Assembly (NCBI GenBank): GCA_037138755.1
Contig: JBAXHT010000004.1
Span: 62,001-126,000 of the forward strand
Origin: Armatimonadota bacterium
GTDB taxonomy: Bacteria > Armatimonadota > Fimbriimonadia > Fimbriimonadales > Fimbriimonadaceae
Reading direction: 5' to 3'
Length of the DNA: 64,000 nt
Shown: piece after piece, positions 1,688 through 8,700 of the stretch
Numbering within the stretch: position 1 is the stretch's first letter
Layout of the letters: every line of letters begins with the position of its first letter
Position numbers and translations under genes: made by a program
Notes under the pieces: model-generated
Databases searched by the model: none
What the model was told of the DNA's origin: nothing
Seen by the model: only the letters and a program-made list of their open reading frames with translations

Positions 1688-3532
1688 TTGAAAGTGTTTT
1701 GTCTTACGAGGATAGTGGGTGGATTAGTTGCGGCGAGCCTGGCTTGTGCGGCTCTTTCTCGATCTGTATCCGCGTCCGGCAGCGCTGTTTACGTTGACGG
1801 AACTCAAGTGATCACATTCCGGGCGACTTCAAATGGAGTGAGTCCAGATCAGCTTGCGGCAAAGGCAGCTTCCCGGCTTTCGAGGGCCTCGGGAAAAGTT
1901 GCTGTGCGGAGATCCGGTGACGATTATGTCATCAAGGTTGGCGCAGACACAGTTTTGACGATCACGCGTCCGGAGGCTGTTGCTCGGGGAATTGACCGAA
2001 AGACCCTTGCCTACCGGTGGGCTGGCGAACTACAAAGAGTCCTCGTCGAGAGCAAACGTTCAGCAAATCCAAGCCAAGGGGAGATTCGATTGCCTGTCGG
2101 CGACTCCACCGCCTTATCGATACCCACGACGGTCAAGGTCACATCCTCAGATGATCGATTTCTCTCGATTAGCAAGGCCGGCTCGACGTACTATGCGACG
2201 GCGATTCGGCCAGGCACCGGATTTGTGACCATCAACAACGGAGGTGCCGTCCGCCAAGTGAGTTTCGTGTGCCGCATGACAGCGGCAAAGCTTCCAGATG
2301 CCTATGAGGCGGAGGTGACAGGTAGGCCAGCAATTCCTGGAACCGTGCGCGGTGCCATCGAAGCGGCTCTCAAGCAACAAACGAAGTTTTCACCGCTTGC
2401 AAAGCTCGAATGGAGTGTGGAGAACGTACCTGCGCTGGGAGCAGGGCTTACTGTCACAGTGCCCGTCAAGATCAACATAACCGCACCGGACACTGCTTCT
2501 CGAGCCGGGACGGTCACAGTCAAAGTATCCAACGTCACCCTAATTCCGCAGGATGAAAACGTTCTCTGGTACTGCAACGACCCGGAAAGGGTAGAAAAAC
2601 CAGGGAACCTCTTCGCGGCGACACTCGAACTCGGAAAATCGGCTCGGTATCTGTACCATCACATCAATGATTCGGCTGGTCCCCTGATTCTCAGATCGCA
2701 GATCGTCAACGACTCTGACGTAGCGGCGAAAATCGCGCTGACACCGGGTGATTCGGCTCCTGACTTCGATCCTGTAGGGGCAGGGATGCGAGCTGGAGAT
2801 TTGTTCATGCGAGCGATTCGATCAGCAAGTGGAGAAATCGTTGTGATTCCTCCGCGTTCGACGTGTCCGATCTCTTTCCGGCGACTGACTCCTCAAGCGG
2901 TGATCAGCGGGTTAGCGGCGATTCGGTTGATCGACGGTCCAGAGAAGGTCGTCGTTCGGGCTGACGCTTTCCCTCCTTACGAAGTCATTTCAAAATGGAA
3001 ACCAGCTCTTGCGAGCTCGACTCCCTGGCGAGAGGTAGGAGCGCAGCCACTAAACGATTGGGACAAGTCAAGTTACACCATCTCAGACCACATCTATCCA
3101 GACCCCATCAGAACCGAGTCTTGGGAGTATACGGTCGGTGGCCGAATGGGCGTTTTTCGCCTCGGCCAGAAGTCGATACAGCGACAGGACAGCGGCGGAA
3201 AGTTGGATGGCAATTTTGGAGTTACCGTGAACTTGGAAACCACGCTGAATAACCCAACTGACGAGACCGTGAACGTTGAGATCGCGTTCGAAACCAGCGC
3301 AGGTTATTCAGGCGGACTGTTCTTCGTCGACGACGTCTATTTGATGACGCCCAAGCTTCTCCCGAAAAAGCAAGCAAGAATCGCATTCTTCAGAATGCCA
3401 CCCGGTTCTACAAAGAAACTAAGAATCACCACGATTCCCTTGTCAGGGTCAAGCTATCCGGCAACACTTTTTGCCCGAGTGGCAAACGCTGAATCATCGG
3501 AAGGCGTGATCGATATCACCAAGCGCAGATAA
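1688..3532 (+). CDS. secreted protein of unknown function
   Basis: Not recognised as a known family. The 614-residue product starts at a TTG behind a good GGAGG ribosome site (1679-1683). It has a signal peptide (about residues 1-29, cleavage near SVSAS). The N-terminal segment AVYVDGTQVITFRATSNG, followed by an Ala-rich helix, resembles a small periplasmic module with Q/A-rich helices. The rest looks like beta-rich, Ig-like domains, so it is probably a periplasmic or surface protein. The TPR gene starts three bases after its stop, so the two are probably one operon. An 11-base palindrome, CAGGTAACCTG (1666-1676), overlaps the leader. Confidence 0.75.
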   Translation: MKVFCLTRIVGGLVAASLACAALSRSVSASGSAVYVDGTQVITFRATSNGVSPDQLAAKAASRLSRASGKVAVRRSGDDYVIKVGADTVLTITRPEAVARGIDRKTLAYRWAGELQRVLVESKRSANPSQGEIRLPVGDSTALSIPTTVKVTSSDDRFLSISKAGSTYYATAIRPGTGFVTINNGGAVRQVSFVCRMTAAKLPDAYEAEVTGRPAIPGTVRGAIEAALKQQTKFSPLAKLEWSVENVPALGAGLTVTVPVKINITAPDTASRAGTVTVKVSNVTLIPQDENVLWYCNDPERVEKPGNLFAATLELGKSARYLYHHINDSAGPLILRSQIVNDSDVAAKIALTPGDSAPDFDPVGAGMRAGDLFMRAIRSASGEIVVIPPRSTCPISFRRLTPQAVISGLAAIRLIDGPEKVVVRADAFPPYEVISKWKPALASSTPWREVGAQPLNDWDKSSYTISDHIYPDPIRTESWEYTVGGRMGVFRLGQKSIQRQDSGGKLDGNFGVTVNLETTLNNPTDETVNVEIAFETSAGYSGGLFFVDDVYLMTPKLLPKKQARIAFFRMPPGSTKKLRITTIPLSGSSYPATLFARVANAESSEGVIDITKRR

Positions 3533-3535
3533 TTT

Positions 3536-4396
3536 ATGGATGCAAACGTTAACGCAATCGCCGATTTATTCGGTGCAATCACTCTGGACCACAGCGATGA
3601 ATCGGGCCCGAGCAAGTTTGGGAACAACGCCACAGAAAGTGAGCAACTTGGGAGGATGAGCCTTGACGCAGGTAAGTACGCCGAGGCGATTGCACACTTT
3701 CAAAAGGCAGTTGAACAGAGCGAGCCAGGAGATGTGAAGAGTCGCATTGATCTTGCTGGCGCTTTTGAAGCCACTGACCAGTTTGCTGCGGCTTACCGAC
3801 AGTACGCGCGGGCGCTGGCGCAGAAGGCAGACGCCGTGGAGCCTCACGTCGGTCTCGCAGACTTGTTGAAGCGTCATGGTCGAACCTCCGAAGCGATCAG
3901 CGAGCTTCAGAAGGCTGTTGAAGCCGAGCCGAGCAATCCATACTTCAACTTAAAGATCTCCGAAGCACTTCGGTCGGCAGGATTTCCGATGAAGGCCATG
4001 GAGTTTGCCGTCAACGCTGTGGTGGCTAAGCCAGATGATTCTTACCTCCACTACTGGGTAGGCGATCTTCTGACCCAGCTTAAGCAGTATCCAGAGGCAC
4101 TTCAGTCTTTGCGGGCTGCCGTTGAATTATCTCCGGGCGACGACTTCCTGTACTTACGATGCTCGGTCGCGTTTTGGCTTTCAGACATGAAAGTTGAGGC
4201 GATCAAGGCCGTCCGTTTAGCCAGTGATCTGGAGCCTGAGAAGAACGTTTATCACGGACTGCTCGAAGAACTCTTAAGGGCAACTGGGCAGGAAGCCGAG
4301 GCCGAGTTAGAAGTTGAACGCGCAAGTCAGATGGATCGGTTTGATGAAGACCAGGTCGAGAGGATCTTGCGCGAAATGGGTTTTGACCTGGCCTAG
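3536..4396 (+). CDS. tetratricopeptide repeat protein
   Basis: A 286-residue protein with about six consecutive TPR-like helix pairs. Examples are AGKYAEAIAHFQKAVEQ near residue 45, GRTSEAISELQKAVEAEPSN near 115, and KQYPEALQSLRAAVELSPGD near 184. There is no signal peptide or membrane helix, so it is probably cytoplasmic. TPR arrays mediate protein-protein contacts; the partner is unknown. It follows the secreted protein by three bases and ends 13 bases from the convergent pseudo-caspase gene. Confidence 0.85.
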   Translation: MDANVNAIADLFGAITLDHSDESGPSKFGNNATESEQLGRMSLDAGKYAEAIAHFQKAVEQSEPGDVKSRIDLAGAFEATDQFAAAYRQYARALAQKADAVEPHVGLADLLKRHGRTSEAISELQKAVEAEPSNPYFNLKISEALRSAGFPMKAMEFAVNAVVAKPDDSYLHYWVGDLLTQLKQYPEALQSLRAAVELSPGDDFLYLRCSVAFWLSDMKVEAIKAVRLASDLEPEKNVYHGLLEELLRATGQEAEAELEVERASQMDRFDEDQVERILREMGFDLA

Positions 4397-4409: not shown

Positions 4410-5747
4410 TTAGAAGCGAGAGTCGGAAGCCAGCAACTGGAGCACTGGGAGAGTAGGAGTTTGACGAGAACCTCCACCGGAAGAACCAGTCTGGCCTCGA
4501 CGAATCTTGTAGAAGACCTGCCACCCAAACTCGGTGATCGGGATTGCGTTGGAGTGAAGCTCCGCGAAGACCTCGCTCATTGCGGAAGCAAAGATGCCGA
4601 CGTTGTTTCCATCTTTGAAGATCGAGTAAATCGTCTCACCAGGGGTTGTCGACTGCATCTGCGAAATCCGCCCTGCTTTAGGTTCTTCACTACCAAAGAA
4701 TCTTCCACCGATTGCAGATCGCGCGACTTGGTAGAACGCGAATACGGCGATTCCTTTCTCGACGAATGGTCGATAAACTTCGGTTTTTGCGACCATCGAG
4801 GAAGTGTCGGTTGCCAGTTGAGTGTCCGCGCCTGCAAGCCAGTCACGATTGTCAATGTTCGCGCCAGCGCCCGTGAAGAAGAACATCAGAGTCGATTCCG
4901 CCGGCATTTTCGCGGCGAGTGCCGCGGAAGCGGTCTTGATTTGTTCCGCTGAGGCATTGGAAACCACCATCACATTTGCGGCATCGTATCCGGCATTGGC
5001 TGTAATCGAATCCTTAAGCAGGTTTGCGTCGTTGGTTGCGTGGCTAATCTGGAAGCCAGGTAGCTTGTTGTCCCCGTTTGCAATGATGAGAGCGTATTTC
5101 TTGGGGTTAACTGCCACGGGACCGACCTTGAGTGGCTGCTTAGGAACAACTCCTGTCATGTTGCTTGCGTCAACTACTGCGACCACACCCTGTGAGTTGC
5201 CAGTTGGCATCATGCTCTGTGACATCGCCGAAACTTCCTCTGGAGCCATAACCTCGGCATCGACCTTCCAGTTGGCCTTCTCTGCCTGTTTCCCAAGACC
5301 CTGCAACTTCTCAGTCTGGTTTGCTCGAGAGTACAGCGCAGCGAGGAAATACAGCGATTCTTTGCTCACCTGCTTCTTCTTTAAGAGTCCTTCTAATTCA
5401 TCCTGCGCCGTCTTTAGGTGTATCGAGGCAGCATCCCCTTTGGCACTCATTCCGAGCTTGTAGGATGCGTATGCAGAGAGAAAGTTTGGAGAGTAAGGTG
5501 CTCCACCACGCCATTTTCGAGCATCCGTGACGGGTCCTGGAAGGTTTGTTGGACCTGATACATCGTCGGGACGGTTTGCACGAGCTTTCTGGAACTCTTT
5601 TCGAGCACTTGCCCAATCTCCAGCTTTTGCCGCCTTTAGTCCGGCTTCATAGGCCGAAGTCCAAGACTGACCCATTGCCGAAGCGATGAGTGCAAGCCCC
5701 AAAATTCCAGTCGTAAAAAATCGCATGCGCATTGTCCTATTTATCAA
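4410..5747 (-). CDS. secreted caspase-fold protein, catalytic dyad lost (pseudo-caspase)
   Basis: A 445-residue protein with a signal peptide (residues 1-26, ending ASAMG), a TPR-like N-terminal half (about 30-160) and a caspase/metacaspase p20-like C-terminal half from about residue 215. KKYALIIANGDNKLPGF matches the first p20 strand and NDANLLKDSI the following helix. At the catalytic His site the usual YSGHG is FTGAG. At the catalytic Cys site the usual DACRSG is FYQVARSAIGG. Both catalytic residues are therefore missing, which suggests a binding rather than protease role. It overlaps the upstream outer-membrane gene by 11 bases, so co-expression is likely. An alternative start lies at 5732. 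Confidence 0.78.
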   Translation of the reverse strand: MINRTMRMRFFTTGILGLALIASAMGQSWTSAYEAGLKAAKAGDWASARKEFQKARANRPDDVSGPTNLPGPVTDARKWRGGAPYSPNFLSAYASYKLGMSAKGDAASIHLKTAQDELEGLLKKKQVSKESLYFLAALYSRANQTEKLQGLGKQAEKANWKVDAEVMAPEEVSAMSQSMMPTGNSQGVVAVVDASNMTGVVPKQPLKVGPVAVNPKKYALIIANGDNKLPGFQISHATNDANLLKDSITANAGYDAANVMVVSNASAEQIKTASAALAAKMPAESTLMFFFTGAGANIDNRDWLAGADTQLATDTSSMVAKTEVYRPFVEKGIAVFAFYQVARSAIGGRFFGSEEPKAGRISQMQSTTPGETIYSIFKDGNNVGIFASAMSEVFAELHSNAIPITEFGWQVFYKIRRGQTGSSGGGSRQTPTLPVLQLLASDSRF

Positions 5748-6840
5748 ATCGGTAGCTGAAGGTGAAAGCTATATCCTTTCCGCCTGTTTTCGGAAATGCA
5801 TAGTTTAAATCGAGGGCCCAAGGTTGGCTGTTTGGCCGATAGCCAAGACCAAACGTGAAGCCGTTTCGGCTATTGAAGGCGTCTCCACCGTCCGGAGAGG
5901 TCATGTAACCGACCCGTAGCGGCAGAGTGTAGCCCTCGCGGTTGAGTCCAAGTTCTGCTCCGATACCGAGGGTCGTTTGCGAGCTTCGAGAGAGGAGCCC
6001 ACTTCCCGATCCTCCGAAGAAGTGGTTGAGCTGAACGCCGGAGAGCAAGTAGTCACTGCCGCCACGGAATCCATCAACTCTTCGGGCAACACCAAGCGAG
6101 AGCTGGCCCGGAACGGTTTCGTAGGCTGACTTGACTACGTCGCTACCTTGAAGCTTGATCGGTGTCCTCAGGCTAACTCCGTAAGAGCCACTACCGTTAT
6201 TACGCTGGATTCCCACTACGAGACCCACGCCATATGCGTTCGCCTTGTTATCAGTGTCGATCAGGACTGAACCGCCAGGGATGAAGCCAAGTTGTCGGTT
6301 CTGGAAGTTAACGTCGGCAAAGGTGAGTCCGTAGCCGCTTGAGTTCGTACCTTCTTCGTTAGCCTTGCCCAGCGCAACCGTGTAAAAGCTGGTTTTGACA
6401 TCAAGCAGCTCGGAGTACGTCACGTTTGTTAGCGCGCCGGAGGTCAGTCCGGTGCCCCCACGGAAGTCGCTGATGTAGCCGCCGACTTGATAGCTAACTC
6501 CGATGGTACGACCGCCCTTTAGAGGAATGGCATAGCCGAGGTGTGTGAGTTGACTTTTGCCACCGTCGCCATCGGTCGAAGCAAAGGGAGAGTTCAGATT
6601 GCCAGAAAGGGAAGTGAAACTCGTTGGCATGTTTCGGAATGCCAAGCCATAGCTTTTGGTAGAAACATATCCGAGTCCCGCTGGGTTATTGAGAATGCTA
6701 AAGGTGTCGGCACCAGTAGCCCCAAATGCTCCGAATGAGCGGCTACCAGCATCAAAAGTATTAAGCAAGTCTGGAATCTGCGCGACAGAAATCGCCGTGA
6801 GCGACCCAAGCAACAGCGACGTTGAAAATAGTTTATTCAT
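5737..6840 (-). CDS. outer-membrane beta-barrel protein, PorV/UPF0164-like
   Basis: A 367-residue protein with a signal peptide (about 1-20, cleavage near SVAQ). The N-terminal motif, SRSFGAFGAT followed by FSILNNPAGLGYV, is the hallmark seen in the PorV/PorQ/UPF0164 outer-membrane families. The rest alternates Gly/aromatic beta-strands and ends in an aromatic-containing strand (AFTFSYRFDK), as expected of an outer-membrane barrel. It lies 23 bases after the Ig-like gene and overlaps the pseudo-caspase gene. Its cargo or partner is inferred only from this context. Confidence 0.78.
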   Translation of the reverse strand: MNKLFSTSLLLGSLTAISVAQIPDLLNTFDAGSRSFGAFGATGADTFSILNNPAGLGYVSTKSYGLAFRNMPTSFTSLSGNLNSPFASTDGDGGKSQLTHLGYAIPLKGGRTIGVSYQVGGYISDFRGGTGLTSGALTNVTYSELLDVKTSFYTVALGKANEEGTNSSGYGLTFADVNFQNRQLGFIPGGSVLIDTDNKANAYGVGLVVGIQRNNGSGSYGVSLRTPIKLQGSDVVKSAYETVPGQLSLGVARRVDGFRGGSDYLLSGVQLNHFFGGSGSGLLSRSSQTTLGIGAELGLNREGYTLPLRVGYMTSPDGGDAFNSRNGFTFGLGYRPNSQPWALDLNYAFPKTGGKDIAFTFSYRFDK

Positions 6841-6863
6841 GATTACAAAGGGTAAGGACGGTT

Positions 6864-7847
6864 TTAGCCGTTGACACGCACCAAGACTTCTTGTCGGACG
6901 GCGACATTCCCGGCTTTATCTAATGCAGTTGCGATGACCTTATAAGTCGAAGGAAATCCGCTCCGCCAGCGAAGCTTTCCTGTATAACGCCAAGTGTTGT
7001 TGCCAATGTCCGTGAATGACTGTCGGGCAACACGGGTCACAAACGTGCCGTCGGTGCGCTGAATGATCACATCAACTCCGGTGACGGCTACGGCCGAAGC
7101 GAATTGATCCGAGATGTCGACGATAACCGTGACATCAGCTCTGGATCGAATTGGTGTTGAAGCGTTAGGAAACTGAATGGTTGCGGTTGGAGCGCGGCGG
7201 TCAACGGTGACGGGAATCGAAAAGTTCAGGGCGTTATCGGCTTGATCCTTCGCGCTGAGAGCAATGTTTTGCGGTCCGTCATTGTCCAGGGTTGTCGAAT
7301 TCCAGTCCAACGAAAACTCAGTTGTGGTGCCCGTGTTGTTCGCGATGTCACTGCCGCCAACGGTGATTCGCCAATCCTTCATGTTATCTTCGAGGAGCTT
7401 GAAGCGAATAGGAACAAGCCCCTTTACGAACGAGTTTTGTGCTGGTCTGTATTCCAGGAGTTTAGGGAGCTTGGTATCCACTTTGACTGCCAAGTTCACA
7501 GGTGCGTAAGTCTTGCCTGGCTCTGTTGCGGTGACTTGAATCGTGTAGTCGCCCTGAGGTGCGTTCGTCGCAAATGTCAGGTTGAGAGATCCTGAAAACT
7601 CGCCATTTACGAAAGGAGTAACGTTTGTGCTGACTGTTGACGACCCGGAAGGGCTCGTCACGGTCGCAACGACAGTAAGCTCGACGGAAGCTCCCTTGCC
7701 ATTAAAGGACAAAGTTTTGTTTCCGTTGAGCCAGTCACCGTTTGTGGGAGACGTCACGTTGAATGTCGTCTGGCTGAACCCAAGGGCACCGAGGGTGAGA
7801 CACAACAAAACCGTAATCGACCGTAGAGAATTCACAGTAATCACCAA
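6864..7847 (-). CDS. secreted protein with Ig-like domains
   Basis: A 327-residue protein with a signal peptide (about 1-26, ending LGFSQ) and about three Ig-like beta-sandwich units (roughly 28-125, 126-220 and 221-327). These include SPTNGDWLNGN, DTKLPKLLEYRPAQNSFVKG and DRRAPTATIQFPNASTPIRS, typical of bacterial adhesion or surface Ig modules. The start is a TTG five bases after the HAD gene; GTG codons at 7844 and 7835 are alternatives. Second gene of the four-gene leftward run. A structural extracellular role is inferred. Confidence 0.75.
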   Translation of the reverse strand: MVITVNSLRSITVLLCLTLGALGFSQTTFNVTSPTNGDWLNGNKTLSFNGKGASVELTVVATVTSPSGSSTVSTNVTPFVNGEFSGSLNLTFATNAPQGDYTIQVTATEPGKTYAPVNLAVKVDTKLPKLLEYRPAQNSFVKGLVPIRFKLLEDNMKDWRITVGGSDIANNTGTTTEFSLDWNSTTLDNDGPQNIALSAKDQADNALNFSIPVTVDRRAPTATIQFPNASTPIRSRADVTVIVDISDQFASAVAVTGVDVIIQRTDGTFVTRVARQSFTDIGNNTWRYTGKLRWRSGFPSTYKVIATALDKAGNVAVRQEVLVRVNG

Positions 7848-7852
7848 ACTAC

Positions 7853-8650
7853 CTAAGGTTGTAGCACATAGCGGGCGATGAACTCACCTACTCCGCCTTC
7901 TTCGTTGCTACTTACCGTATATGTTGCAAGCTTTTTGACTTCCGGAAGCGCATTTCCGACTGCCCCCGAGAGACCGGCAAGCTGGATCATCTCAATATCA
8001 TTGCGATAGTCGCCGATTGCTGCGATTTCAGAGTGCTCAAAGCCGAAGTGCCGACACAGATGTGTCAGGCCCGAGCCCTTGTTCACATGCTGGGGCATGA
8101 TCTCCAGGTATCGGGGAGCGGATTCCGTCACGTCGGCAGCGAGGTTATGGAGGAGCGGCTCGAGTTCTGCACGTAGGCCGGGAACAGTCTCGGCGTCAGC
8201 AATGTACACCAGCTTAAAAACTGGCATATCGAGCACCTGCTCTGGGGTTCGGATCTCGATGGGGATACCTTTCACAAGTTCCCGATACTCGTCGAGATAT
8301 TCTGATTCCCGAAGCGCGTATGTTCCGTCCGTTGAATAGCAACTGAGGTGGAGCCCTTTTGAAACTGCAAAGTTGAGCGCAGCCTGTTTCACCTTGCGAT
8401 CCAAGCGCTCTTTGGCTACCGATGCTGAGGACGCCCATACGTCAGCCCCGTTTGTTGCCACAGCGGAACTCACTTTCATAAAGCCATCCAGGACTTTTCG
8501 GATGCTCTGAATCGATCTCCCGGAAGCAATAACGACCCGAACCCCTGCTTCTTCTGCCTTCGCCAGTTGCTCTAATGCATAGGGATGGGGTGTGTGGTCT
8601 GCTCGCAATAAGGTTCCGTCGAGATCGATGGCGAGCAGTTTGATGTGCAT
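7853..8650 (-). CDS. HAD-superfamily phosphatase, Cof subfamily
   Basis: A cytoplasmic phosphatase, probably acting on sugar phosphates or flavin/nucleotide phosphates, as Cof-type HAD enzymes do. It begins MHIKLLAIDLDGTLL, which contains the nucleophile motif DLDGT. Motif II is VIASGRS, and the C-terminal KGSGLTHLCRHFG and AIGDYRNDIEMI supply motifs III and IV. A TTG at 8698 would add 16 residues with no homology, so I chose the ATG at 8650. It is divergent from cheW, with 50 bases between. The substrate is not predictable. Confidence 0.88.
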   Translation of the reverse strand: MHIKLLAIDLDGTLLRADHTPHPYALEQLAKAEEAGVRVVIASGRSIQSIRKVLDGFMKVSSAVATNGADVWASSASVAKERLDRKVKQAALNFAVSKGLHLSCYSTDGTYALRESEYLDEYRELVKGIPIEIRTPEQVLDMPVFKLVYIADAETVPGLRAELEPLLHNLAADVTESAPRYLEIMPQHVNKGSGLTHLCRHFGFEHSEIAAIGDYRNDIEMIQLAGLSGAVGNALPEVKKLATYTVSSNEEGGVGEFIARYVLQP

Positions 8651-8700
8651 TTTCCTAGTAAAGATGGCAGCGTGACATACCAAAGATTCAACTACCAACT

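Follow-up and report, generated by a model that had tools for sequence, protein, structure and literature searches.

The window analysed here is a stretch of 64,000 nucleotides from an Armatimonadota bacterium. Near one end, four genes run leftward (Table 1). One encodes a Cof-type HAD phosphatase; the other three have export signals, and their products are an Ig-like protein, a barrel of PorV/FadL-like type and a protein combining a TPR domain with a caspase fold. All four, placed by a preliminary description at 4410-8650, are present in the list of open reading frames. The spacings of 5, 23 and -11 bases given there hold on the longest frames; the last does not if the caspase protein starts at ATG 5732, which lies 4 bases beyond the barrel stop without overlapping it. 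Downstream of the caspase gene, the plus strand (window 1688-4396) encodes a TPR protein and a protein of 614 aa that matches no Pfam family; relatives of the two were seen at the same place in L093 and L094 only.

Table 1. Features of the four-gene run, in window positions
Feature	Position	Strand	Remarks
Exported TPR + pseudo-caspase protein	4410..5732 (longest ORF 4410-5747)	-	ATG 5732 likely, TTG 5747 possible
[Q/E]-x-x-R motif, Q333-V-A-R336	4719..4730	-	in place of caspase D-x-C-R
N-terminal TPR-like domain (W-R-x-G-x-P-Y-S-P-N-F motif)	5247..5669	-	37-row alignment
PorV/FadL-like outer-membrane barrel with signal peptide	5737..6840	-	PorV_fam profile
Exported Ig-like protein	6864..7847	-	start TTG 7847 or GTG 7829; Big_13 profile
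Cof-type HAD phosphatase, first in run	7853..8650 (longest ORF 7853-8698)	-	ATG at 8650; TIGR00099

The HAD protein matches Hydrolase_3 (E 9e-59) and the Cof model TIGR00099 (173 bits against a cut-off of 137). The Ig-like protein of the window matches Big_13 at E 3.7e-5, just under the cut-off, and 28 of 32 aligned members of its family do so at E 1e-3 or better. For the barrel, similarity to the NCBIfam model PorV_fam was confirmed (E 8e-9, 35.4 bits) far under the curated cut-off of 90, so that 'PorV-like', as the preliminary description called it, is right and 'PorV' is not. PorV_fam is matched at E 1e-3 or better by 35/35 aligned barrels (best 6.3e-13), while PorVQ2 (NF052325, 'putative type IX sorting system protein PorV2', curated cut-off 325 bits) is matched by 9/35 (best E 1.1e-8), with the related barrels of five other loci at 25-44 bits. 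Against the PDB, the barrel profile matched PorV (6h3i, E 0.007, over 45 positions only) and then 3dwo (E 0.046), a FadL structure according to the accessible sections of PMC12611786. The window barrel is 76% identical to that of the Armatimonadota bin Loclat_bin-02583. AlphaFold models of the caspase protein and the barrel reached pLDDT 43 and 26, the latter from a two-row alignment, and are too poor to use.

The caspase protein contains a Peptidase_C14 domain at residues 209-389 of its 438-aa reading (E 5e-7, 30.1 bits against a Pfam cut-off of 21.4), a family matched at E 1e-3 or better by 28 of 37 aligned members. In the window copy the catalytic His and Cys columns are occupied by Ala287 and Ala335. 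Across 77 aligned copies both residues are missing without exception (0/77 each): the His column holds V, A, Q, S, P, T, N, I and others, and the Cys column N, S, D, H, P, A, R or G. This loss of the pair fits the inactivity proposed in the preliminary description, as far as sequence can predict it. A His lies within three columns in 11 copies and a Cys in 6, the window copy belonging to neither set, so a shifted catalytic residue is possible in those copies. All 77 carry the [Q/E]-x-x-R motif, which aligns with the DACR of the complete long copies described below. In the N-terminal TPR-like domain, W72, R73 and G75 are invariant and Y78, S79, N81 and F82 nearly so (37-row alignment).

Comparison of the caspase gene with that of G025 gave a dN/dS of about 0.06. 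Its pairwise dN is 0.11 with synonymous sites nearly saturated, close to the 0.08-0.09 of CheA. The caspase fold is under strong purifying selection despite the lost catalytic pair. In the PDB, the profile of the caspase family found metacaspases as well as the MALT1 paracaspase (E 2.5e-6). A search of 291 genomes across the phylum found the full-length protein in this class only; outside it, the listed matches are to the C14 domain, save one in G245, which we set aside because the protein is of a generic TPR type and no barrel was seen next to it. Elsewhere in its own genome, L186:2518-5541 encodes what appears from its motifs (SGHG, DACRAG) to be an active caspase. Its N-terminus is signal-like and its C-terminal part is long; within the 6 kb read, no barrel gene was noticed.

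To follow the three exported genes (hereafter the trio) through the class Fimbriimonadia, 113 of its genomes were searched with each protein singly. Matches to the caspase protein were found in 82 genomes, to the barrel in 77 and to the Ig-like protein in 75. The caspase match of G107 is to a generic C14 domain and was discounted; on this basis all three are present in 74 genomes, none in 31 and a part in 8. Four of the partial sets lie at contig ends (G008, G011, G033, G057), and in the other four (G022, G035, G058, G059) the pseudo-caspase stands alone, with neither Ig nor barrel, which implies no strict dependence on these two genes. An MFS gene adjoining the lone caspase of G035 was considered and rejected as a replacement barrel. 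The Ig and barrel genes are missing together, the exceptions being G011 and G057, whose loci are truncated at contig ends. The trio is missing from family f3 (18 genomes), five genomes of the same genus as the window and several further genera; one of the same-genus genomes, G015, is a single contig of 5.2 Mb.

Regions fetched for the genomes with matches comprised 89 loci, and 70 of them hold Ig-like, barrel and caspase genes in this order on a single strand; measured on the longest frames, the median gaps are 25 and 3 bases. The remaining 19 comprise the four exceptions, G107, the second locus of G112, one locus with a split barrel (L171), one with an assembly gap (L106) and fragments at contig ends. 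An export-signal heuristic was satisfied by 73/77 caspase, 70/73 barrel and 68/73 Ig copies. The preliminary description had proposed looking for the trio and its order in related genomes; with 74 of 113 complete and 70 loci alike in order, the three exported genes are a conserved unit, far from chance. An 858-aa frame in G009 that would fuse barrel and caspase was discarded, as its join crosses assembly Ns read as X. Additional matches to the barrel in G079 and G041 were likewise rejected, being FadL-like in appearance with no trio beside them. One barrel copy (G016:C10:114026-115177) has an in-frame TGA counted within the match.

The HAD gene immediately precedes the trio at 46 of the 70 loci, belongs to a common Cof-type family and remains beside the caspase gene in G022, G058 and G059, all without Ig or barrel. 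It is probably a bystander, and its inclusion as a functional part in the preliminary description was not borne out. CheW-CheA, HDOD and FliD genes also lie in the neighbourhood, and this wider neighbourhood is conserved too; neighbours beyond HAD vary between families while the trio is constant. A flagellar link suggested by CheA and FliD was rejected, since FliP is present in the trio-free f3 and absent from the trio-bearing G016, G017 and G024. Across the three exported genes dN was 0.08-0.17 with synonymous sites nearly saturated, the caspase and Ig genes being similar to CheA. In a distance-based co-evolution test over 21 loci, partial correlations were 0.60-0.79 inside the trio and 0.62-0.68 with HAD, so that this mirror-tree test did not distinguish the trio from its HAD neighbour.

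Outside the class, the barrel profile gave long matches in three genomes of family f12 (G143, G146 and G147) and twice in G211. At L187 (G143) and L191 (G147) the order is again Ig-like, barrel and then a long protein with a C-terminal C14 domain over the cut-off, among neighbours other than those in the class. The Ig-like proteins there have 1241 and 1168 aa and match the Ig profile at E 1.5e-51 and 1e-70; the long caspase proteins have 1377 or 1519 aa. These two complete long copies carry GHG and DACR, aligned with the sites lost in Fimbriimonadia. In G146 the contig ends after the barrel and 1105 N-terminal aa of the long protein, and a piece resembling the C-terminal part lies on another contig; in all, the long form occurs in 3 of 12 f12 genomes. 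Profile-profile comparison linked the long and short forms through the caspase domain alone (probability 93%), so the distant trio may have arisen by separate assembly. With E 1.5e-13, the other, apparently active caspase of the own genome is also a better match to the class profile than the G147 long form (E ~5e-6).

Further layouts were seen around related barrels. In G211, a 1300-aa Ig-like protein precedes a PorV-like barrel at both L188 and L189, and what follows the barrel is a sulfatase gene at one locus and, at the other, genes for two proteins that match no Pfam family. G112 carries, besides the class form, a copy without caspase (L175): an Ig-repeat protein, a barrel and a protein of at least 1077 aa that has no caspase domain and matches the N-terminal TPR domain of the caspase protein (E 1.1e-9). 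From these layouts, Ig and barrel look like a wider pair with a variable third gene. Other PorV-like barrels of the phylum were sampled at 40 weak-match loci, where a barrel gene was called in 35, an Ig-profile neighbour was found in one (L198) and a caspase-profile match at E 0.01 in 0/40.

PorU is a caspase-fold protein, and the preliminary description had likened the trio to the PorU-PorV pair of type IX secretion while seeing no other part of that system. Its absence of parts was upheld: PorU is over the cut-off in 0/113 class genomes, and so is the SprA/Sov translocon, which is also over it in 0/12 f12 genomes; the SprA searches of both groups matched none of the control genomes. Sub-cut-off SprA matches in the class span some 100 of 2319 positions and are present in trio-free genomes too, and one partial PorU match in G111 covers 304 positions at 62 bits against 420. 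The own genome has no C25 peptidase (PF01364), in a search that again matched no control genome, and no sorting tail TIGR04183, a model that 18/113 class genomes match over the cut-off, weakly. Judged by sequence, the trio is distinct from type IX secretion. The likeness to PorU-PorV stands as a resemblance and no further, the caspase domain being C14 rather than C25 and the barrel below the PorV_fam cut-off.

Set beside known systems, the trio shares with PorU-PorV of Bacteroidota a PorV-type outer-membrane barrel and a caspase-fold secreted partner. It differs in that PorU is an active C25 sortase while the C14 domain here is predicted to be inactive, in the Ig-like gene that belongs to the unit and in a class without SprA or PorU over the cut-off. 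PorV holds PorU at the surface and shuttles cargo, according to the part of PMC5562754 available. In the accessible text of PMC6426788, pseudo-orthocaspases are defined by a caspase p20 domain without the His-Cys pair, are found mostly in Alphaproteobacteria and Cyanobacteria and have YS as their commonest variant; its main text, as far as available, contains no word starting with Armatimonad. The window family likewise has a p20 domain without the pair, and stands apart in being exported, in its barrel neighbour, in its occurrence in most of a class and in its new [Q/E]-x-x-R motif. A third comparison is BamG, described in the available part of PMC12611786 as a FadL-family barrel and docking platform for the extracellular surface lipoprotein BamH, the two being essential in Bacteroidota. 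Here the partners are Ig-like and pseudo-caspase proteins, and 31 of 113 class genomes lack the trio. No description of such a barrel, pseudo-caspase and Ig system was found in open PubMed Central papers.

These observations lead us to propose, with slightly less than an even chance of being right, that the trio forms one outer-membrane assembly of a barrel platform, an Ig partner and a caspase-fold partner that is catalytic in one lineage and an adaptor in Fimbriimonadia. We infer binding among the proteins, their topology, what they hold and their function as follows. Mechanistically, the PorV/FadL-type barrel would be the membrane platform, a role assigned by analogy with PorV-PorU and BamG-BamH, and the TPR and caspase-fold protein would dock on it. 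The Ig-like protein would be a surface or secreted partner held or presented by the barrel-caspase pair. In the distant family f12, the caspase-fold protein with its His and Cys could process this partner, like PorU beside PorV; in Fimbriimonadia catalysis would have been lost and the fold retained to serve as an adaptor, which would probably bind through the invariant [Q/E]-x-x-R patch. We count in favour the 74 complete against 31 empty genomes, the single order and strand of the 70 loci, the export signals, the lost catalytic pair with its replacement motif, the low dN of the three genes, the same order at L187 and L191 and the L175 variant. Against the proposal count the lone pseudo-caspase of four genomes, the comparable HAD correlations, the caspase-only link between long and short forms and the preference of the class profile for the other active caspase of its own genome over the G147 form.

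Other readings have to be weighed against such an assembly. The barrel could be an ordinary FadL-type transporter for hydrophobic molecules, with the Ig-like protein and the pseudo-caspase as periplasmic accessories or stress sensors and no surface display. One of the 35 aligned barrels also matches FadL PRK10716, and the 3dwo match points the same way; the uniform PorV_fam matches, with PorVQ2 in nine, speak against it, as does an Ig-like neighbour that is constant and also stands beside related barrels of other families. Such a constant neighbour is unusual for a transporter, and we consider this reading unlikely. It is likewise rather improbable that the three genes merely share a promoter and neighbourhood and act separately, their order reflecting operon inertia. 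The conserved wider neighbourhood, HAD correlations that match most within-trio values and the four lone pseudo-caspases would agree with it, yet Ig and barrel are lost together apart from the contig-end loci G011 and G057, neighbours past HAD change between families while the trio does not, and the Ig-barrel-caspase order recurs in a distant family among other neighbours.

We give little credence to the trio as a canopy accessory to the outer-membrane assembly machinery, akin to BamG-BamH and aiding insertion of certain surface proteins: a related G211 barrel matches BamG at E 6.5e-6, far under the cut-off, and BamG is itself a FadL-family barrel docking a surface protein (PMC12611786, accessible part), whereas an essential assembly part would not be expected to be missing from 31 of 113 genomes. 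Least probable of all, and very improbable in our judgement, is a remnant or divergent branch of the PorU-PorV attachment complex. The PorV-family similarity of a barrel beside a caspase-fold protein invites it; the missing core parts (SprA, PorU, C25, sorting tail) largely contradict it, and so does the C14 type of the putatively inactive domain.

Within the proposed assembly, it is possible, if somewhat doubtful, that the trio represents a new Armatimonadota outer-membrane system outside type IX secretion, in which a barrel and a secreted C14-fold protein act on an Ig-like surface protein, the C14-fold protein being still catalytic in one lineage and remade in Fimbriimonadia into a pseudo-protease receptor whose invariant [Q/E]-x-x-R site is new. 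If the complex is real, caspase-fold proteins and FadL/PorV-type barrels would have been paired at least twice, with an active C25 sortase in Bacteroidota and a C14 protein in Armatimonadota, giving a second, independent caspase-fold partner of a PorV-type barrel at the bacterial surface. It would also offer a pseudo-protease present in most of a class that can be compared with an apparently active counterpart, a test case for the passage from protease to binding protein, and a first handle on the surface biology of a phylum with few cultured members.

One further gene accompanies many of these loci. Absent at the window locus and without a Pfam family in three scanned copies, it encodes about 290 aa with the motif RGvGPK..StflRD, occurs at L147:10391-11260 and at 44 further loci, and is an immediate neighbour of the caspase gene at 42 of these 45 loci.
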